Virus record (IMG/VR): IMGVR_UViG_3300033388_001405
Location: 1-37,248 of that record
Length of the DNA: 37,248 bases
DNA from: a virus
Direction: 5' to 3' (one strand)
In this document: piece by piece, positions 7,608 to 31,107 of the stretch
How positions within the stretch are numbered: the stretch's first letter is position 1
Layout of the letters: every line of letters begins with the position of its first letter
Translations under genes and position numbers: made by a program
Notes under the pieces: model-generated
The model's database searches: none
What the model saw: the letters and a program-made list of their open reading frames with translations, nothing else
What the model was told of the DNA's origin: nothing

Positions 7608-8087
7608 TTAAGCCGTTACTGCATTGAGAACTTCCGCGTCGTAGCTTGGTTTCTCCATAGAAATAACAACGCCCGCCAATACAGGATCGTTTGCCACTTC
7701 TACGCATTTCATACGCACATTCGGATAGTTCAAGAACTGATTCTCTGCCTTTGCCCGAACCGTATAGACCTGATGACTGCCCGCCGTGGTAGTAAACCCA
7801 GTAGAGGCTACTGCCGTCCACTTAGTGTTTGTCTCGCCAGCAGAAGTCCGTTTGTACTCAAACTCAACAGCCTCGGAATTCGTGGGCGTGAAGTCGTCCG
7901 TCGATTCAATGGTAATAAGCGTAGTACCAGTAGTACCCACACCGATAGAAAGCTGGAAGTGTGCCTCTTCGTACAAACCCATGCTTACAATGTCGGTGTA
8001 GATGGTTCCGGCAAGAGCGTCAGCTACCGGCGATGCCAATAGCGTAGTGCTTGCCCCTGTTCCTGTTACAAAATGTTTCTGACTCAT
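7608..8087 (-). CDS. Capsid-proximal beta-rich protein
   Basis: 159 residues directly downstream of the major capsid gene (27-nt gap). Strands and turns dominate ('YEEAHFQLSIGVGTTGTTLI', 'VEFEYKRTSAGETNTKWTAV', 'SHQVYTVRAKAENQFLNYPN'). Many phages place a decoration or head-stabilising protein here, so a decoration role is plausible. No active-site pattern is visible and no exact family is recognised. Confidence 0.55.
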   Translation of the reverse strand: MSQKHFVTGTGASTTLLASPVADALAGTIYTDIVSMGLYEEAHFQLSIGVGTTGTTLITIESTDDFTPTNSEAVEFEYKRTSAGETNTKWTAVASTGFTTTAGSHQVYTVRAKAENQFLNYPNVRMKCVEVANDPVLAGVVISMEKPSYDAEVLNAVTA

Positions 8088-10935: not shown

Positions 10936-12447
10936 TTAATTATCGGATATAATAGGTATTAATTGACAACGACAATTCGGATGTAAAGGAGGGTGAATTA
11001 TTGGTTCATACCCAAACTTCAAAGTGATCGGATCGCCTGACTCAAAGCTGTCGACTGTCAATGTATCGCCCTTTTCAAAGTATTTACCCGATAGAGTAGC
11101 TGTCTTGCCTTTCATCTTCGCACAGTAGGGGCATCTGCGGTCATCCTCGACCGTATCCCACTTTTTACCCGTAACAACGCCGCTTTGCTCCCACGCAAGC
11201 ACAGTGCCCTCGTTATGAGCCCATATAGTCTCTGTCCTGACAACCCTATCGGCCTTAAACCTTGCATCGAACTGATCGCCGACCCGCTTAATCGTCTGGC
11301 TTTTGCTTTCGCCAAGGTTGATCGACTCTGCTATATCGTCCCGCACTTCTTTTTGTACGGTGGTTGCTACTGACTGAATCTGTCCGGCTCGCTCATCCAA
11401 TGAACGGAGGACGGCAGGGCTTGACACATTCACAATAGCATCAGGCTTAACCTTTTCCATCGCGTCGACAAGTCCATTAGTCATAAGACCCCGAACAAAT
11501 GGACGGGCATTGTCGGATATAATAACGCCCCATTTAGTCTCATTAAATACAGAGCTGACAATATCATCAGCAGATGCAGCGAACGCCGCGTCACTTACTT
11601 CGTCCTCAATCGCCTTTGGCTTGCCGTAATTGCGCAAGTTCTTTATAATCTCAGCTTCCATAGACCGGAATACCTGGGTCATGTTGATTTTGAATATATT
11701 TGGCATGAAGTCGGGCTCGGGTAGATCGTTTGTCTGTCCCTCACGTTTTATCACGACCTCGATAGCCTTTTCGGGCGATGTCACTTCTTCAACCTCTATC
11801 GGTTCAGGCTCGACAGGTGCTTCGCCCCAAGGTACTGGGTCGAGACCGTCAATAGCCCTTTCTTCATTGATAGAGCTATATTTAGTAGTAAGGTGGCCTT
11901 GTATCTCTTTAAGCCGTGTTTCCGAGTCTGCCGGAATTGCATCATCGAACAGCAAGAAAAGCCCTTCGCCCCAATTAGGAGTAAATTGCTCATTAAGCTT
12001 CTGTTCGATCATGGTAAGCTTTGGATTGATAGTGAACTGCATCCATAGCTTGATAGACGAACGAAGATTATCCCTTGATATCTCGGTAGGAACTACAAAG
12101 GTGAGAGGCACGCCATAGACGCCGCATGTTTCCTCAAGGGTAGTCTTTCGACCGCCCATGAAGTTCATATCCTTGGGATTGTGGCCGAATTCGTGTATTT
12201 TTGCGCCACCACTGCCAATCATAAGCTTGCCGGTGTTCTTAACTCCGCCCGTCTTGCTACGGAAGTCTGCCTGTATTCGTTTCTTCTCGTCGGGCAACAA
12301 ACTGCTGTCAACCGGTAACTCCATCACCATCGACGGGTTACCGCCATTCTTAAAGCTGGCAATCTCGTACTGATTCATCGCCTCATTGAGATCGATGGAC
12401 TGTTCTCCGGCTCTTGTCGGGCTATCACCCTTGAGCGGGTTTACCAT
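10936..12447 (-). CDS. Portal C-terminal part fused to MuF-like head morphogenesis domain
   Basis: 503 residues in a frame displaced by -1 from the portal N-terminal part. The frame stays open upstream of the first Met and there reads 'NPPREFQPEDIVHFKY' then 'NPLKGDSP', which is the HK97 portal continuation ('..diiHfk...n..G.SP'). Residues 1-215 are the portal stem and clip region. From about 240 to the end is a MuF/SPP1 gp7-type domain: 'VRTETIWAHNEGTVLAWEQSGV', 'DDRRCPYC', 'HPPLHPNCRCQLIP'. The MuF protein is a minor head protein placed with the portal; fusion to the portal is less common than separate genes. See the frameshift finding near 12497-12503. Confidence 0.85.
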   Translation of the reverse strand: MVNPLKGDSPTRAGEQSIDLNEAMNQYEIASFKNGGNPSMVMELPVDSSLLPDEKKRIQADFRSKTGGVKNTGKLMIGSGGAKIHEFGHNPKDMNFMGGRKTTLEETCGVYGVPLTFVVPTEISRDNLRSSIKLWMQFTINPKLTMIEQKLNEQFTPNWGEGLFLLFDDAIPADSETRLKEIQGHLTTKYSSINEERAIDGLDPVPWGEAPVEPEPIEVEEVTSPEKAIEVVIKREGQTNDLPEPDFMPNIFKINMTQVFRSMEAEIIKNLRNYGKPKAIEDEVSDAAFAASADDIVSSVFNETKWGVIISDNARPFVRGLMTNGLVDAMEKVKPDAIVNVSSPAVLRSLDERAGQIQSVATTVQKEVRDDIAESINLGESKSQTIKRVGDQFDARFKADRVVRTETIWAHNEGTVLAWEQSGVVTGKKWDTVEDDRRCPYCAKMKGKTATLSGKYFEKGDTLTVDSFESGDPITLKFGYEPIIHPPLHPNCRCQLIPIISDN

Positions 12448-12467
12448 TGAGGTGTATTTGAAGTGGA

Positions 12468-13001
12468 CTATATCTTCTGGCTGGAATTCTCTTGGTGGGT
12501 TACATATATGTTGATTATATCGGCATCGGGCGATCTTACCATATTACTGTCGACACCACGCTCTAACCACCAATAATCGACCCCGATAGCTTCCAGGTAT
12601 TTAACAGTGAGCTCTTTAAGGTCGTATGCGTTGTCATTGGGGTTTACGTTCCGAAGTAGACCGAGGATTGGATGGTCTGTGACTTCTTCTAGCGTAGCCG
12701 ATCCCACAACCCGCTCTGCAAGCTTAGTACGGAGGAATGCAGTCTTTTCGGGGGCAAGGGCTTTCGATTTGATCTTTTGCGTACTGGGTGAGCCTACGAC
12801 CTTATACAGCCTCAGTGGTACTTGAGCACAAGCGGTTGCGTTACGACCGATACAAGTCCATGACCAACCGCGTATCTTTGCAATCAAAGCCTTGTCCGTA
12901 GAAGCGGAATTAGACCCAATCTGCAACCCGAAGTGCTGCAATACTGAAGCCTGATTGAACGCCTTTAGCACAATACTTCTTAGTTTGCTTTTAAACCACA
13001 T
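12468..13001 (-). CDS. Portal protein N-terminal part (frameshifted gene)
   Basis: Start chosen at the ATG ending at 13001 because AAGGA lies four bases upstream; the longer frame would need a TTG ending at 13028. Residues show the HK97 portal N-half: 'ALIAKIRGWSWTCIGRNATACAQVPLRLY', 'TDHPILGLLRNVNPNDNAYDLKELTVKYLEAIGVDYWWLE' (seen as successive short motifs). After 'DADIINIYV' the frame leaves homology and stops 12 codons later, while the -1 frame carries the rest of the portal. One added base in GTAACCC (12497-12503) would join both parts into a single portal-MuF protein of about 690 residues. The portal forms the dodecameric DNA entry ring. Confidence 0.85.
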   Translation of the reverse strand: MWFKSKLRSIVLKAFNQASVLQHFGLQIGSNSASTDKALIAKIRGWSWTCIGRNATACAQVPLRLYKVVGSPSTQKIKSKALAPEKTAFLRTKLAERVVGSATLEEVTDHPILGLLRNVNPNDNAYDLKELTVKYLEAIGVDYWWLERGVDSNMVRSPDADIINIYVTHQENSSQKI

Positions 13002-13042
13002 ATAGTCCTTGAATGAAGAAGCTTGCAAGTCTCTTTATTTTA

Positions 13043-14191: not shown

Positions 14192-14791
14192 TTAAATATC
14201 ATCCATATCATTCCATATTGCCGGGTCATTATCATCGATGACCATTTCATCCACAAACATGTCAGGCTCGAAATGAGGCTGTTTCTCCTCAAGTTCGATA
14301 AACTCCACGCCTGCCTTCACTCTGCCCTTCAGATAGGTCACTCCGTACCGCACAGCGTCGATTAGATGGTTCAGGTAGTCGACCGGCTTACGGAGTAGCG
14401 TGCCGTCTTTCTTTTGCGCCCACTTATACGAGTTAAGTTCTTTGATAAGATTAGGGCTACCGGCGTCGACGTAGATATTATACTGCTTTACTGTCTGAAT
14501 TCCGTACAAGATTGAATCCTTGCCCTTGACTGCTGGAATCACGGTCAGTCCGTTCTGCCTGAGCTCTACTATCGACTTTGGCTCGGCACTGTCGGCTATT
14601 ACCGGCGTGTACCCTGTCAATGGCAGCAATCTACTGGCTATGCCCGGGTTTGTCAAGCCCTTTTCGTACAGTACTTCCTTGAGATACAGGTCATTACCCT
14701 CGAATGCGATATCAACCGCTGCTGATGGATCGATGCTGAAACCGAAGTCAAGGCCGAATACATTAATATAAGCCCCTTTAGGCTTCCCCAC
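14192..14791 (-). CDS. Terminase large subunit, C-terminal nuclease part (frameshifted)
   Basis: 200 residues counted from a GTG ending at 14791, but no ribosome site precedes that GTG, so it is unlikely to be a separate start. 'FGLDFGFSIDPSAAVDIAF' near the start is the RNase H-like nuclease motif I of PBSX-type (Terminase_3) large subunits, 'VIADSAEPKSI' is the second acidic block, and 'LNHLIDAVRYG' is the C-terminal metal-binding helix. The nuclease cuts the DNA concatemer during packaging. It must be read together with the ATPase part in the other frame, either by -1 slippage or after repair of a missing base. Confidence 0.88.
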   Translation of the reverse strand: MGKPKGAYINVFGLDFGFSIDPSAAVDIAFEGNDLYLKEVLYEKGLTNPGIASRLLPLTGYTPVIADSAEPKSIVELRQNGLTVIPAVKGKDSILYGIQTVKQYNIYVDAGSPNLIKELNSYKWAQKKDGTLLRKPVDYLNHLIDAVRYGVTYLKGRVKAGVEFIELEEKQPHFEPDMFVDEMVIDDNDPAIWNDMDDI

Positions 14792-15540
14792 ATGCCAAGG
14801 CAGTAGATGTTATAGAAGTTCTTGTCACGGGTTACCAGGGACTCCAGTTGAGCCTTGTATGTCTTGTCGATATACTCGTTATCTTTATAGGTGCTGTGCA
14901 TGACAGTCATATGGAAGCTGATTTCCTCACCATCGACTATCGCAGTGTACTTACGCCTTACTGTCTTTTGTCCTGATTCTATCTTTGCTTGCAGCTCATC
15001 CCCGAATAGCTTTTGCCTTATCCAATGGGCTTCGTCTATAGGGTTGAATGTACCTATGATCTGTTTATAATCGGGCAAGTTCCCGCGTAAACGGAGATCG
15101 AGCTGGTTGAAGTCGTCTTCTGTGAATTCTGTCATCTCCTCAAGCCAGATGCTTGTGATACCCTGGATTGATTTGATTTTCTCGGGATCGTCAAGCCCGG
15201 TGTTGATGATCTGAGAACCGAACAGGGTGATTGTCATGTCGGTTTTATTGATTTGAGCCTTATCGGATAGACCCCATTCGATGATATACTCGCAGAATAG
15301 CTTAAATGTGGATGTTCTGGCAGATACCTTAGTCTTACGCAGGCATAGGAAGTTATGCACCCTACCCTCGCTTGCAGCCTTGAGAATGCGGATTAAGACC
15401 TTTTCAGCAGCAAAGTAACTCTTGCCCGATCCACCGCCCCCCATGAGTATCAACCATCTATCCTTATTGAACAGGAGGGGGAAGAACTTGGGGTTGATAC
15501 ATTCCTCGGCGTTGGTTAAGTCTATTATGGTTTTAGGCAT
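14653..15540 (-). CDS. Terminase large subunit, N-terminal ATPase part (frameshifted)
   Basis: Of 295 residues, about 252 are homologous. Walker A 'GGGGSGKS' lies at 34-41, the adenine or R motif region at 'CLRKTKVSARTSTF', Walker B 'SIWLEEMTE' at 130-138, and the coupling motif 'GTFNP' at 163-167. After 'NIYCLGMWGSLKG' the frame runs into 43 unrelated residues and stops at 14653, while the -1 frame carries the nuclease domain. The ATPase motor pumps DNA through the portal. The usual linker of about 20 residues between 'G.WG' and the nuclease motif is also short here, so a small deletion may be involved besides the frame break. Confidence 0.9.
   Translation of the reverse strand: MPKTIIDLTNAEECINPKFFPLLFNKDRWLILMGGGGSGKSYFAAEKVLIRILKAASEGRVHNFLCLRKTKVSARTSTFKLFCEYIIEWGLSDKAQINKTDMTITLFGSQIINTGLDDPEKIKSIQGITSIWLEEMTEFTEDDFNQLDLRLRGNLPDYKQIIGTFNPIDEAHWIRQKLFGDELQAKIESGQKTVRRKYTAIVDGEEISFHMTVMHSTYKDNEYIDKTYKAQLESLVTRDKNFYNIYCLGMWGSLKGLILMYSALTSVSASIHQQRLISHSRVMTCISRKYCTKRA
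14773..14779 (-). promoter_or_regulatory. Candidate -1 slippery heptamer in terminase
   Basis: On the coding strand the bases read A_AAG_GGG in the ATPase frame (codons AAG GGG, lysine and glycine), a textbook X_XXY_YYZ heptamer. Slipping back one base gives AAA GGG, again lysine and glycine, and continues directly into the nuclease frame. No clear stimulatory hairpin was found 5-9 nt downstream. It is the only one of five frame breaks in this window with such a site. Confidence 0.4.
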
Positions 15541-23441: not shown

Positions 23442-23906
23442 ATGAAAATCAAACGTAGAAAAGACAGAGTAACAGCAACCCTAAGACTTCACCCAGACCC
23501 GATACTGACAAAGGTTTGCGAGCCAGTGGAGGAAGGCGAGGACGTATCTAGTAAGGCAAAGGCGATGTTTAAGCTCTTAGGCCAAGAGCAGTATGGAGTA
23601 GGGCTGGCGGCTAATCAGGCTGGGTTCACAGATCGTATAATAGTGGTCCAGAATAGCTTTGGGATATTTGAAGCGTTAGTCAACCCGGCCATAGTTCTCG
23701 CCTCGCCTGTGTCTGATATATCTGAAGAAGGCTGCTTGTCCTATCCGGGAATAACCAAGAAAATATCGAGGCATGTGCAAATTGATGTGCGATACCAAAG
23801 TATGCAGGGTAAGGTTATGCCGCTCCGTTCCTTCGAGGGCTTCGCGGCAAGAATCGTCCAGCACGAAATAGACCACCTCAACGGCAAGTGCAAGGTTGGT
23901 GAATAA
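23442..23906 (+). CDS. def: Peptide deformylase, phage-encoded
   Basis: 154 residues with all three deformylase motifs in the right order: 'GVGLAANQ' at 52-59, 'EGCLS' at 96-100 with metal ligand C98, and 'QHEIDHLNG' at 140-148 with ligands H141 and H145 and catalytic E142. The enzyme removes formyl groups from new N-termini. It lacks the longer C-terminal tail of host enzymes, as other phage deformylases do. One base separates it from the HNH gene and its stop overlaps the next start. It may favour phage protein maturation; host target unknown. Confidence 0.94.
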   Translation: MKIKRRKDRVTATLRLHPDPILTKVCEPVEEGEDVSSKAKAMFKLLGQEQYGVGLAANQAGFTDRIIVVQNSFGIFEALVNPAIVLASPVSDISEEGCLSYPGITKKISRHVQIDVRYQSMQGKVMPLRSFEGFAARIVQHEIDHLNGKCKVGE

Positions 23907-25150: not shown

Positions 25151-25336
25151 ATGAGCAAGATGGTCAAGCGTAACTACTGCCGGGAATGCCCCTACCGCGA
25201 GCGGGGGAATAACTGGGAGCTTGACTATTGTCGGTGGCACAAGAAACTTTGCAAAGACGCGCGGATGGGCGGGAATATTCCTATCCTGAAGTGTAAGAAA
25301 TTCGCGGAAATAGTTGAGAATATTGCGGAAAATTGA
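25151..25336 (+). CDS. Cys-rich zinc-finger-like mini-protein (61 aa)
   Basis: Start chosen at 25151 (GGAGAAAG upstream). 61 residues with 'YCRECPYRERGNNWELDYCRWHKKLC' (in parts: C..C, C..WH, C), then a C-terminal basic helix. Four Cys and one His in 25 residues suggest a single zinc site. The promoter of the next unit follows within 10 bp. Confidence 0.6.
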   Translation: MSKMVKRNYCRECPYRERGNNWELDYCRWHKKLCKDARMGGNIPILKCKKFAEIVENIAEN

Positions 25337-25345
25337 AAGTAACCG

Positions 25346-25374
25346 TTGACAAAGTAGCTTTTTTAGGGTAAGAT
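25346..25374 (+). promoter_or_regulatory. Internal early promoter P1 (AGGG type)
   Basis: -35 TTGACA (25346-25351), 17-nt spacer ending TTTAGGG, -10 TAAGAT (25369-25374), predicted transcript start near 25381. Its core TTTAGGGTAAGAT matches leftward PL (TTTAGGGTAGGAT) at 12 of 13 bases and the promoter at 29735 closely, so these form one promoter class. Confidence 0.75.
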
Positions 25375-25380
25375 TTAAAC

Positions 25381-25470
25381 ATCATGAAGACTACCACTAA
25401 TCAAAACCAAATATTAAAGCTTCGTTACCGACAATTCTGTGGTGGTCTTCCGGTGGCGGAGCTTTTTCTA
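25381..25470 (+). ncRNA. Structured leader or small RNA 1 (competing stems, terminator-like end)
   Basis: Stem A pairs GAAGACTACCAC (25386-25397) with GTGGTGGTCTTC (25439-25450): 12 pairs, one G-U. Stem B pairs AAAGCTTCGTTACCG (25416-25430) with CGGTGGCGGAGCTTT (25451-25465): 15 pairs, three G-U, followed by TTCTATGG after the arm's own T run. The 3' arm of stem A lies in the loop of stem B and directly abuts its 3' arm, so both cannot form fully at once. This fits an attenuator, an sRNA with its terminator, or a folded anti-termination signal. The same plan recurs at 29768-29873. Confidence 0.6.
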
Positions 25471-25481
25471 TGGAGTAAATT

Positions 25482-26012
25482 ATGAGCAAGCCATTTGAAG
25501 TTAAAATCACACGAGCAGACAAAAGGAATCGGAAAATCATATTAGTACTGGAATCTGATATTTTTTCCCACGAAACTTTTGCCATGAATCCATTTTATGA
25601 CGATGGGGATGAAAAAAACCAACTCCAAAACATCAATTTTGTATTGAAAGTTAAAGAGACCAAAGGGGCTATTGAAGCGAACGTAGCCTTCGCTAGCACT
25701 TACCATTTCACAAGAGGTCATCGCCAATTGCATTCTCCGATATCTACGTTTTATCGAGAAAGAAAAGACTGCGCTAGAGCGTGGGTACGAGAATCTAATG
25801 TTTCCAGTGAATATTACGCTGACCACAAAGTTTCTTTATTAAAGCATTGGAGCAAAGACACTGAATTTATTATAGAGCTTAAATCTTTGTTGCAAGAAAA
25901 GGAACGTAAGGCAGTAGATTTAGAAATTGAATCCGCAAGGGATGGATTGCAAACCGCCATTAAAAGGCTCGGTGACGCAGTAGACGCACTCAAAGAAACA
26001 AACAAGGACTAA
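25482..26012 (+). CDS. Hypothetical protein behind structured leader 1 (176 aa)
   Basis: 176 residues, start ATGAGC after GGAGTAAATT. The N-terminal 75 residues are beta-like ('FEVKITRADKRNRKIILVLES', 'INFVLKVKETKGAIEANVAF'), followed by a central 'RGHRQLHSPISTFYRERKDC' segment and a C-terminal coiled coil. It is the first gene of a unit with its own promoter and leader, so it may be a regulated function. No family recognised. Confidence 0.6.
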   Translation: MSKPFEVKITRADKRNRKIILVLESDIFSHETFAMNPFYDDGDEKNQLQNINFVLKVKETKGAIEANVAFASTYHFTRGHRQLHSPISTFYRERKDCARAWVRESNVSSEYYADHKVSLLKHWSKDTEFIIELKSLLQEKERKAVDLEIESARDGLQTAIKRLGDAVDALKETNKD

Positions 26013-26051: not shown

Positions 26052-26774
26052 ATGGCTGAAGGACGAATGCTAAAAAAGCTCATATCGACAAGCAAGAAAT
26101 TAGCCAACCTCAAGACTGATTCAGCAAGACTTTTGTACACTTGGCTACTCCCTCACTTAGACGTAGAAGGTAGGTTTTCGGGCGAACCAGACATAGTGAA
26201 AGGCTCTATTGTACCACGGCTAAAGACTATGGATTACGAAAAAGTAGAAGCATACTTGACAGATATGGCCGAAAATAACCTCATTGATTTGTACGAAATT
26301 GACGGCGATAAATACTTAGAATTGATAAAATTCCACAACTTTCAGACCCTCAGGAAAGGCCGAGAATCGCCGTCTCAGATACCAGATAAAGAAGGACTCC
26401 GGCGGTACTCCGGCGGTACTCCGGCCCAAGTTAAGTTAAGCGAAGCGAACGTAAGCGAAGATAAGTTAAGTGAAGTTAACGGAAGTGAAGTAAAACCCGT
26501 TTCGTCTTTTTCCTCAGGAGATCGTATTTCGCTCGCTTCGGACGAACTGAAGTTTTACGACCTTGTCAATACCATTTTCGGATGCGCCAAGCAATCTGAC
26601 AAGACAACGCTCCAGAACATAGCAAAGCATTTATCGACAAAGCATGAGTACGATGACAAGGTTTTCAGTAAAGCCTACAAGGTTGCTCAGGAATGTAAGA
26701 AAAAGGGGAGCAAACCAATAGCTCTTTTCATAAGCAGAGTTAAAGATGAATTTGATTATAGGAGTACGAAATAA
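26052..26774 (+). CDS. Replication initiator / DnaD-like replisome organiser
   Basis: 240 residues. The N-terminal 110 residues are a winged-helix-type domain ('SARLLYTWLLPHLDVEGRFSG', 'EAYLTDMAENNLIDLYEIDGDKYLELIKFHNFQ' in parts), widespread in phage replication genes. A linker of repeated short units ('KLSEANVSEDKLSEVNGSEV') separates it from a helical C-terminal domain ('KTTLQNIAKHLSTKHEYDDK', 'PIALFISRVKDEFDYRS'). Such linkers encode repeat DNA that can be the origin, as in lambda O. No helicase or loader gene is named nearby; the next ORF may serve this role. Confidence 0.7.
   Translation: MAEGRMLKKLISTSKKLANLKTDSARLLYTWLLPHLDVEGRFSGEPDIVKGSIVPRLKTMDYEKVEAYLTDMAENNLIDLYEIDGDKYLELIKFHNFQTLRKGRESPSQIPDKEGLRRYSGGTPAQVKLSEANVSEDKLSEVNGSEVKPVSSFSSGDRISLASDELKFYDLVNTIFGCAKQSDKTTLQNIAKHLSTKHEYDDKVFSKAYKVAQECKKKGSKPIALFISRVKDEFDYRSTK
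26396..26495 (+). repeat. Tandem repeats in the initiator gene, candidate origin
   Basis: Three 11-bp units ACTCCGGCGGT start at 26396, 26407 and 26418 (the third diverges at its last two or three bases). They are followed over 26428-26495 by a purine-rich tract of diverged AAGTTAAG and GAAGCGAA words. A spacing of 11 bp puts each copy on nearly the same face of the helix. Repeats inside the initiator gene are the normal site of lambda-type origins. Confidence 0.5.
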
Positions 26775-29417: not shown

Positions 29418-29738
29418 ATGGGCAAGAAACTCCCGCACACCCCAAGAAGCCGCGTGAAGGCCGCTCTACGCCAATTGTGGTTGCGGTCAAGGGAAAGAGC
29501 CAAGGCACTCAAGGACGCAGGCTACAGGTGTACTGGGTGCGATGTGAAGCAAAGCGTGGCGAAGGGGCGGGTGGTCAAGCTTGAAGTTCACCATCTGACA
29601 GAGATTCAGTGGAACGAATTGATTGATATGGTTTTCGATAGACTACTGAACGTGCCGCAGACCCCTTTATGTAAGCCCTGTCACAAGATCGAGACAGAAA
29701 AGCAGGTAAAAGCGAGAGAAAAAAAGAAATCCAGTTGA
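29418..29738 (+). CDS. HNH-type endonuclease
   Basis: Start chosen at 29418 (GAGGAGTAAGCTA upstream). 106 residues: zinc pair C38/C41 ('YRCTGCDVKQ'), 'LEVHHLTEI' with the His pair at 58-59, and 'TPLCKPCHKIET' with C85, C88, H89. The long gap between the two parts holds a helix ('NELIDMVFDRLL'). Its last codons overlap the -35 of the next promoter. May serve in recombination or as a mobile nuclease. The basic N-terminus could bind DNA. Confidence 0.8.
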   Translation: MGKKLPHTPRSRVKAALRQLWLRSRERAKALKDAGYRCTGCDVKQSVAKGRVVKLEVHHLTEIQWNELIDMVFDRLLNVPQTPLCKPCHKIETEKQVKAREKKKSS

Positions 29739-29762
29739 CTTTCCTTTTTTATAGGGTATTAT
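29735..29762 (+). promoter_or_regulatory. Internal early promoter P2 (AGGG type)
   Basis: -35 TTGACT (29735-29740), 16-nt spacer ending ATAGGG, -10 TATTAT (29757-29762), start near 29769. The part from TTTTTT to ATTTAAACA is almost the same as in P1 at 25346. The -35 overlaps the stop codon of the HNH gene. Confidence 0.72.
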
Positions 29763-29767
29763 TTAAA

Positions 29768-29873
29768 CAGCGATGAACATAAACCCAAAAATCTTAGCCC
29801 TTCAACCCACAGCAGTAGACCCTCCTCCTACTTGTTCTTCGCTGAACGCTGTGCGGTTGCGGGGCTTTTCTAT
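29768..29873 (+). ncRNA. Structured leader or small RNA 2 (competing stems, terminator-like end)
   Basis: Stem A pairs CAGCGATGAAC (29768-29778) with GTTCTTCGCTG (29834-29844), 10 of 11. Stem B pairs AGCCCTTCAACCCACAGC (29796-29813) with GCTGTGCGGTTGCGGGGCT (29848-29866), 17 pairs with one mismatch and one bulge, followed by TTTCTATT. As in leader 1, the 3' arm of stem A sits in the loop of stem B just before its 3' arm. The arm sequences differ from leader 1, but the layout and the CTTTTCTAT-GAG end are the same. Confidence 0.6.
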
Positions 29874-29885
29874 TGAGGTGATATA

Positions 29886-30086
29886 ATGAGTGACATAAGC
29901 ATATCAAGCCGAAGAGTGATAAGGAATCTCATCAGGCAAGTTAAGCATTATTCCGATGTTGAGTATTGCGAAAAGGACTGCCCTTGTTATGTATGCAAGT
30001 CCTTACGGTCAGCAAAGAGAGAAGAAAAGAAATTAACCAATATTATAGACACTACTAAGCGTGCTCGAATGTTTTATTCAAGGTGA
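29886..30086 (+). CDS. Hypothetical protein behind structured leader 2 (66 aa)
   Basis: 66 residues, start after GAGGTGATATA. Basic with a Cys group ('YCEKDCPCYVCKSLRSAKRE'), suggesting metal and nucleic-acid contact. It is the first gene of the second promoter-leader unit. No family recognised. Confidence 0.55.
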   Translation: MSDISISSRRVIRNLIRQVKHYSDVEYCEKDCPCYVCKSLRSAKREEKKLTNIIDTTKRARMFYSR

Positions 30087-30284: not shown

Positions 30285-30496
30285 ATGAAGGTATGGGTAA
30301 CGAGAGACAGGATAGACATTGAAAGGTGCTGCGGTATATTTGAATCCAAGAAAAAGCCGTGCCTTAACAATAGCGGGGCTTATCCAGTAAGTAACGGCGA
30401 TTTGACTTCTAGCAGTTTGTTAAGCGATATAAGTTCTTGCCAGACAAGGGATCCTGCAAGCAATACGAGTTGAGCCTTACGGAGATTAAGAAATGA
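30285..30496 (+). CDS. Small phage protein, broken by a -1 frameshift
   Basis: First frame 30285-30473 begins 'MKVWVTRDRIDIERCCGIFES', the normal opening of a common phage mini-protein, but ends in Ser-rich nonsense. The -1 frame, open from 30413, reads 'QFVKRYKFLPDKGSCKQYEL' and ends 'SLTEIKK' with a stop at 30494-30496 that overlaps the next ATG as ATGA. That end fits the family's usual finish ('ge..evel.i...'). The shift must lie in 30413-30473. Corrected length is about 70 residues. Confidence 0.6.
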
Positions 30497-31107
30497 AACC
30501 AATATTATTCAACGGCGCAATGATCCGTGCAATACAGGATGGAAGCAAGACGCAAACCAGACGACCGATTAAGGGTGTGCCTGATGAATTTCTTACTGGC
30601 GATGTCGCTGCGATAACTAATGGTTCTGAATGGGCTATCGGCAAGACACGGTATGGTTGTCATCCGCGACAAGGAGAGAAAGGCATTACTGCCAAATACC
30701 AAGTAGGGGACGTGCTTTATGTCAGAGAGCGGGCAATCGCGGCAAGGAAAGTAGTCGGTAGTGAAACTAAGTACTTGTTCGTTTACCAAGCCGACTGTGC
30801 ATCTGCTGGATGGTCTACTTTGCCAGAGCGAATTAAGGATATCAAAGAAGGCCACTGTTGCCCCAACGGTTGCTTCCGCGAGCTTGCCCGTATATTCCTG
30901 AAAGTTACTGCGGTGCGGGTGGAGAGAATTAAAGATATAAGCGAAGCCGATTGCATTGCGGAGGGAATAAAACCCGTTGAGGTCAACGGTAAGCAGTATT
31001 TAAATAGAGGTATGTTTGCTAATCTATGGCACTCATGCTATCACGGATCATGGGATCGAAACGATTTCGTCTTCGTCTACACTTTCGAAAGGTGCGACAA
31101 GCCATGA
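30493..31107 (+). CDS. ASCH-domain-like phage protein
   Basis: 204 residues. 'KPILFNGAMIRAIQDGSKTQTRRPI' (in parts: the 'g.KTqTRR' motif), 'YQVGDVLYVRE', 'LARIFLKVTAVRVERIKDISEADCIAEGI' and 'NLWHSCYHGSWDRNDFVFVYTF' match phage proteins of the ASCH/PUA-like group, a fold that binds RNA or modified bases. An insert of Cys residues ('HCCPNGCFREL') is less typical. Role possibly RNA binding or base modification reading. Coupled to both neighbours by overlaps. Confidence 0.78.
   Translation: MKPILFNGAMIRAIQDGSKTQTRRPIKGVPDEFLTGDVAAITNGSEWAIGKTRYGCHPRQGEKGITAKYQVGDVLYVRERAIAARKVVGSETKYLFVYQADCASAGWSTLPERIKDIKEGHCCPNGCFRELARIFLKVTAVRVERIKDISEADCIAEGIKPVEVNGKQYLNRGMFANLWHSCYHGSWDRNDFVFVYTFERCDKP

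Follow-up and report, generated by a model that had tools for sequence, protein, structure and literature searches.

The 37,248-nt stretch of viral DNA analysed here, called the window (positions 1 to 37,248 of IMG/VR virus record IMGVR_UViG_3300033388_001405), contains two leaders some 4.4 kb apart in which a promoter, two interlocked RNA stems and a gene are arranged in the same order, and it raises the question of what such a leader does between its promoter and its gene. The second of them, unit 2 (29735-29886), is placed between a gene end at 29738 and a gene start at 29886 on the plus strand. Interlocked-stem leaders had been reported at this place in a preliminary description and were confirmed, with the following parts in unit 2.

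29735-29762, plus strand: promoter, TTGACT (29735-29740), 16-nt spacer and TATTAT (29757-29762), from the sequence and a consensus scan (10/12)
29768-29779, plus strand: 5' arm of stem A, CAGCGATGAACA, at the predicted transcript 5' end and including the leader ATG, from folding and the detector
29773-29886, plus strand: leader ORF of 37 codons, MNINPKILALQPTAVDPPPTCSSLNAVRLRGFSIEVI followed by a stop, with its ATG at about +5 from the predicted TSS and crossing the predicted terminator, from the sequence, the ORF table and statistics
about 29796-29813, plus strand: 5' arm of the predicted terminator stem B, from the MFE of the full leader
29814-29832, plus strand: small hairpin within the B loop, GTAGACCCTCCTCCTAC, from the MFE
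29833-29844, plus strand: 3' arm of stem A, TGTTCTTCGCTG, inside the B loop, from folding
29848-29875, plus strand: 3' arm of stem B (29848-29866) and U-tract TTTTCTATT, from the sequence and folding
29886-30086, plus strand: downstream gene of 66 aa with its own SD GAGGTG, no family found

Unit 1 (25346-25485), placed between a gene end at 25336 and a gene start at 25482, has the corresponding parts.

25346-25374, plus strand: promoter, TTGACA, 17-nt spacer and TAAGAT, from the sequence and the consensus scan
25384-25485, plus strand: leader ORF of 33 codons, MKTTTNQNQILKLRYRQFCGGLPVAELFLWSKL, from the sequence, the ORF table and statistics
25386-25397, plus strand: 5' arm of stem A, 12/12 pairs with 25439-25450, from folding and the detector
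25416-25430, plus strand: 5' arm of the predicted terminator stem B, 15/15 pairs, from folding
25439-25450, plus strand: 3' arm of stem A, in the B loop and directly abutting the B 3' arm, from folding
25451-25470, plus strand: 3' arm of stem B (25451-25465) and U-tract, from the sequence
25482-26012, plus strand: downstream gene of 176 aa, no family found; the next gene is a phage replication initiator (26052-26774)

Elsewhere, the window encodes a phage peptide deformylase (23442-23906, plus strand; Pfam PF01327, E 1e-33). On the minus strand, the large terminase is split over two overlapping frames (14192-15540; ATPase part 14653-15540, nuclease part 14192-14791), through either a sequencing frameshift or a programmed frameshift, and the portal protein is split in two ORFs (10936-13028; 12468-13028 and 10936-12447), the second of which also has a Mu F-like domain.

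In both units the strands run in the order A5'-B5'-A3'-B3'-U-tract downstream of a sigma70 promoter, and stems A and B cross with no bases in common. The pair numbers given earlier for stem A of unit 2 were right (11/12 pairs, 29768-29779 with 29833-29844), and the 17-pair stem B was recovered with 16-17 pairs and small interruptions (about 29796-29813 with 29848-29866), followed by TTTTCTATT, a moderate U-tract, and GAGGTGATATAATG. Folding also placed the 3' arm of stem A in the loop of stem B, as had been described. The promoter of unit 2 is likewise present, but the AGGG by which it had been typed is part of the spacer and the promoter itself is of the ordinary sigma70 type. Situated between promoter and gene, and separated from the gene by 12-20 nt in units 1 and 2, stem B is a predicted intrinsic terminator, and stem B with a T-tract was also found in six further promoter-bearing units. 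A small hairpin is possible before the U-tract in unit 1 (window 25448-25470) and in the unit at 393 of locus L061 (393-496), where it is formed from the B 3' arm; it would be a second, weaker terminator option.

The recurrence of the layout was examined with a detector that looks for a pair of crossing stems upstream of a T-tract. At the first threshold, on both strands of the 37-kb window, it matched exactly units 1 and 2, in agreement with the claim that the same architecture occurs twice. A promoter requirement was added for the scan of relatives, a set of 84 loci (1.29 Mb) made up of the window and of phages and contigs encoding a relative of the replication initiator at 26052-26774; the loci partly overlap, and these base counts are upper bounds. 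The scan gave 16 non-redundant matches versus 0 in block-shuffled sequence, 8 of them clear units and about 8 resembling chance matches inside genes. With a stricter detector, 9 matches (the 8 clear units and 1 further) versus 1 in reversed sequence were obtained in the same relatives, and 0 versus 1 in reversed sequence in 1.45 Mb of other viral contigs. The clear units are those at 25346 and 29735 of the window, 393 and 2976 of L061, 8246 of L080, 5113 of L068, 9865 of L077 and 19689 of L158. The preliminary description had held that lack of the unit in related phages would speak against it; the architecture is present there, with unrelated arms.

Four loci have a start codon, interlocked stems and an ORF without a matching promoter, namely L072, L087, L251 and L288. 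In L251, a locus obtained by scanning more generally for leaderless promoters, an SD-like GGAG precedes the leader ORF, whose start is shifted about 30 nt downstream. L288, found as an ERF-gene relative in a high-GC phage, has a very strong interlocked structure in an 87-codon ORF (11931-12194) whose TGA abuts the next start; a 13-bp perfect stem is interlocked there with a very long terminator-like stem (z -5.4). Few loci, or none, were obtained when relatives were sought through the ERF gene, the gene at 30493-31107 and the gene that follows unit 1. The promoter sequence AGGGTANNATTTAAACA matched 59 viral stretches with no further unit among them, and the promoter is therefore not the mark of the class. 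A nucleotide search in phages returned only weak promoter-like matches, in Enterococcus phages. Rfam covariance models gave 0 matches at the gathering score in the window and, with the cutoff relaxed to E 2, nothing meaningful in six loci, of which five contain units. Short leader ORFs with other hairpin or terminator-like layouts were also spotted by eye before the phage replication initiator in L083 (1-423), L065 (about 7850-7960, hairpins sequential and not interlocked), L088 and L099, and stand outside the statistics.

Between units 1 and 2 the arms are identical at 6/12 and 8/15 positions, about as in random sequence, while pairing is complete or nearly so, which bears out the earlier remark that the arms differ and the pairing is kept. 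The same holds for L077 and L080, whose promoters are identical over 25 nt and whose arms agree at 5/12 and 9/20 positions, again with complete or nearly complete pairing. The flanks of units 1 and 2 are indeed alike, with 27/36 identities from promoter to TSS (shuffle maximum 25) and 23/33 in the 3' flank (shuffle maximum 23), and the leader body between them is no more similar than expected by chance (54/94 in the alignment; 48.8 on average and at most 56 in shuffles).

Folding of partial and complete transcripts gave two states. RNA of unit 2 truncated before B3' folded into stem A (-16.0 kcal/mol, z -3.7) and the full leader into stem B (-34.7 kcal/mol, z -4.1), with 0/200 shuffles as good in each case, so that the folding energies, for which no advantage over shuffled sequence had been named as a refutation, were better in both states. 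For unit 1, the truncated RNA folded into stem A (-17.8, z -4.2) and the full leader into stem B (-24.6), the latter only weakly above shuffles (z only -1.8, 12/200 as good). In nested transcripts of both units, A was the fold up to a length of about 80-88 nt and B was the fold of longer ones. The energies of the A and B states were balanced in 12 units by folding, for example -21.0/-22.1 in unit 1, -24.3/-34.4 in unit 2, -32.9/-29.5 in L061 and -38.8/-39.0 in L072. In both L061 units A stays the minimum fold even for the full-length RNA, and termination there would thus need some event that opens A.

Positions within the transcript are similar in the 8 promoter-bearing units, with A5' in nt 1-21, the start of B5' at nt 28-44, the end of A3' at nt 70-90 and the end of B3' at nt 85-120. 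When A5' was masked, B remained or became the fold in 8/8 of these units, and when masking extended through B5', B was lost in 8/8. Programs for nested structures count A and B as exclusive by rule; by loop-length arithmetic the two could coexist as a coaxial pseudoknot in 10/12 units. Winding B inside the closed loop of A would probably be hindered, and A should at least delay B.

The leaders also contain ORFs, which had been missed before, and are therefore not purely non-coding switches. In 8/8 promoter-bearing units the -10 box is followed at a distance of 6-10 nt by an ATG (about +1 to +5), in or beside arm A5', compared with 81 of 811 promoter-like sites (10%) in the same loci; the resulting P of about 1e-8 presumes independent units, which is only roughly so. 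Read from the near-leaderless ATG, the frame stays open across the predicted terminator in only 5/8 units (P about 0.025); if any ATG among the first 34 nt is allowed as the start, an ORF crosses it in 8/8 (P about 8e-5). In L068, L080 and L077, a leaderless ORF of 8-12 codons ends close to B5' and a second frame crosses the terminator. Stop and start codons overlap with the next gene in unit 1 (TGA with the downstream ATG, ATGA), unit 2 (TAA with the next ATG, TAATG), L158 (ATGATG) and also L072 (TGATG), which is without a matching promoter. The leader peptides, when compared, had no common sequence or codon run; a specific amino acid is therefore not what is sensed, and amino-acid sensing was ruled out. 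The downstream genes are diverse, comprising small genes with no family match in the window, an HNH-like protein and a hypothetical 310-aa protein in L061, an MT-A70 methyltransferase in L068 and the replication initiator in L077 and L087, and without a shared function among them the input is more likely to be general, such as translation.

We consider the units to be transcription attenuators that act in cis and are probably switched by the ribosome, at a probability of about 0.52. We infer the direction and the input of this switch, its sign from the structure. The sigma70 promoter would give a near-leaderless transcript whose first 11-21 nt are A5', holding or flanking the leader start codon. 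Once polymerase passes A3', stem A would close just before B3' is made, and as long as A stands, terminator B would be topologically hindered and polymerase would continue into the gene. A ribosome bound at the 5' AUG would cover A5' and leave B5' free, in which case A would not form, B would form and transcription would stop at about +90 to +120. A ribosome well advanced over B5' would block both stems and allow read-through; in the window units, where the leader ORF ends on the next start codon, read-through could be linked with translation of the downstream gene. The output would then be set by how leader translation is timed against the progress of RNA polymerase.

A ribosome on a 5' AUG covers roughly 15 nt downstream, from which it follows that most or all of A5' would be covered and B5' would not. 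Together with the masking results and the L061 folds, this position logic favours leader initiation promoting termination, unless the ribosome quickly reaches B5'. Initiation by 70S ribosomes on a leaderless 5' AUG has been described, that of lambda cI included, and fMet-tRNA supply and (p)ppGpp are reported to affect leaderless initiation (PMC9031893). Intrinsic terminators can be active within the first 100 bp of a coding region, where the ribosome still lags behind polymerase, and terminators are repressed by ribosomes close to them (PMC4824070).

The sign may also be the opposite, as in pyrBI. Termination would then be the default, B displacing A, and only a ribosome closely trailing polymerase through the leader ORF would prevent the terminator, with A a pause hairpin or merely a guard of the start codon. 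In both window units B is the minimum fold at full length, an ORF crosses the terminator in all 8 units and the pyrBI leader ORF likewise contains its terminator (PMC4824070). We nevertheless regard this explanation as unlikely, because without shared bases B has no branch-migration path by which to displace an A of 10-20 bp, both L061 units keep A at full length and the leaderless ORFs of three units end no further on than B5'.

A trans-acting protein or RNA might work the switch, through put- or N-like antitermination or a phage protein on A or B, the ORFs being incidental; a terminator directly behind a phage promoter and the bistability of A and B would suit such control. No evidence for a trans-acting phage protein was found in this analysis, the units have neither a conserved primary-sequence box between them nor an Rfam match, no opposite-strand promoter-like site lies over either window leader and the near-leaderless ATG in 8/8 would be left unexplained, all of which makes the explanation improbable. 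About as doubtful is a constitutive promoter and terminator yielding a stable phage small RNA of 90-120 nt, a length typical of sRNAs, whose free A5' and A3' arms, complementary and exposed in the terminated product, would act in trans, also on nascent copies of their own leader. The closeness of the gene to the terminator in both units (12-20 nt), together with its SD and stop/start overlap, points to read-through, and units 1 and 2, which share a genome, have different arms and so cannot cross-regulate. A promoter and stem-loop cassette that exchanges genes by recombination without any switch would account for the alike flanks, different middles and different downstream genes of units 1 and 2, and such PeSLs mediate gene shuffling in T4-like phages (PMC4503421), but it is very improbable given that recombination cassettes need conserved sequence, that units of most different phages share none and that the interlocking and the 5' ATG would go unexplained.

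Ribosome-controlled attenuation, the preferred reading, also appears closest among known systems, the units being most like leader-ORF transcription attenuators of the pyrBI or trp type. Of the features of these attenuators, a predicted intrinsic terminator ahead of the gene was found, as was a leader ORF overlapping the alternative structures, in the form of predicted ORFs (8/8 with the ATG, 8/8 crossing the terminator); regulatory codons matching a pathway were not found in the peptides, which precede diverse genes, and the pyrBI type does not require them. The pyrBI leader has a conventional start and senses UTP, whereas the phage leader ORF starts at about +1 to +5, and we know of no interlocked antiterminator stem in pyrBI. 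Common to the pyrBI attenuator of E. coli and the units are an intrinsic terminator inside the leader ORF and, for the units as proposed, a decision on termination by ribosome-polymerase spacing (PMC4824070). Like the trp, ilv and his attenuators, the units have a leader ORF and predicted alternative folds that include an intrinsic terminator. In the trp type, terminator and antiterminator are built partly from the same bases and regulatory codons occur in the peptide, whereas the phage stems cross without shared bases and the peptides have no common codons.

In the RepY-RepZ (IncI) and Tap-RepA (IncFII) plasmid systems, a leader-peptide ORF is coupled to a replication-initiator gene and the ribosome opens an RNA structure; these systems act on translation and use antisense RNA. 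The L077 and L087 leaders resemble them in lying directly before the phage replication initiator, but the phage units involve a terminator, and no antisense promoter was seen in the consensus scan. Antisense-RNA attenuation of the pT181 or P4/P1 c4 type was rejected on the same scan, which gave no opposite-strand promoter-like site over either window leader. To our knowledge, PeSL cassettes have no leader ORF or interlocked stems, and the lambda cI mRNA encodes a full protein with no terminator in its 5' part. The units share with PeSL cassettes of T4-like phages an intergenic promoter and stem-loop repeated in one genome (as cited in PMC4503421), and with the leaderless lambda cI mRNA a phage transcript that has its start codon at the 5' end (PMC9031893).

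The suggestion that the units form an undescribed repeated regulatory RNA class thus stands in part: the leader recurs, its structure is conserved and it has no Rfam match, but as a leader-ORF attenuator-like design it is of a known kind and not wholly new. No phage example of this design was found in the literature search; most subscription papers, those on PeSL included, lay outside its scope, and novelty is therefore provisional. We tentatively propose, as the less probable full form of the idea, an undescribed phage RNA class in which a ribosome on the 5' AUG of a near-leaderless ORF triggers premature termination, the gene is read only if leader initiation fails or runs ahead, and control is exerted by crossing stems without shared bases whose sequence is free to drift.

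Bacterial biosynthetic operons provide the textbook cases of leader-ORF attenuators; the literature searched contained no description of them as a sequence-free architecture that recurs in phages. If the leaders work as attenuators in the way set out above, a phage gene would sense the translation state of the host at its own promoter with no protein factor, and the crossing-stem design would be a compact, testable switch. Because only order and pairing are kept, such units would be invisible to homology searches and Rfam, and they could be widespread and unannotated.
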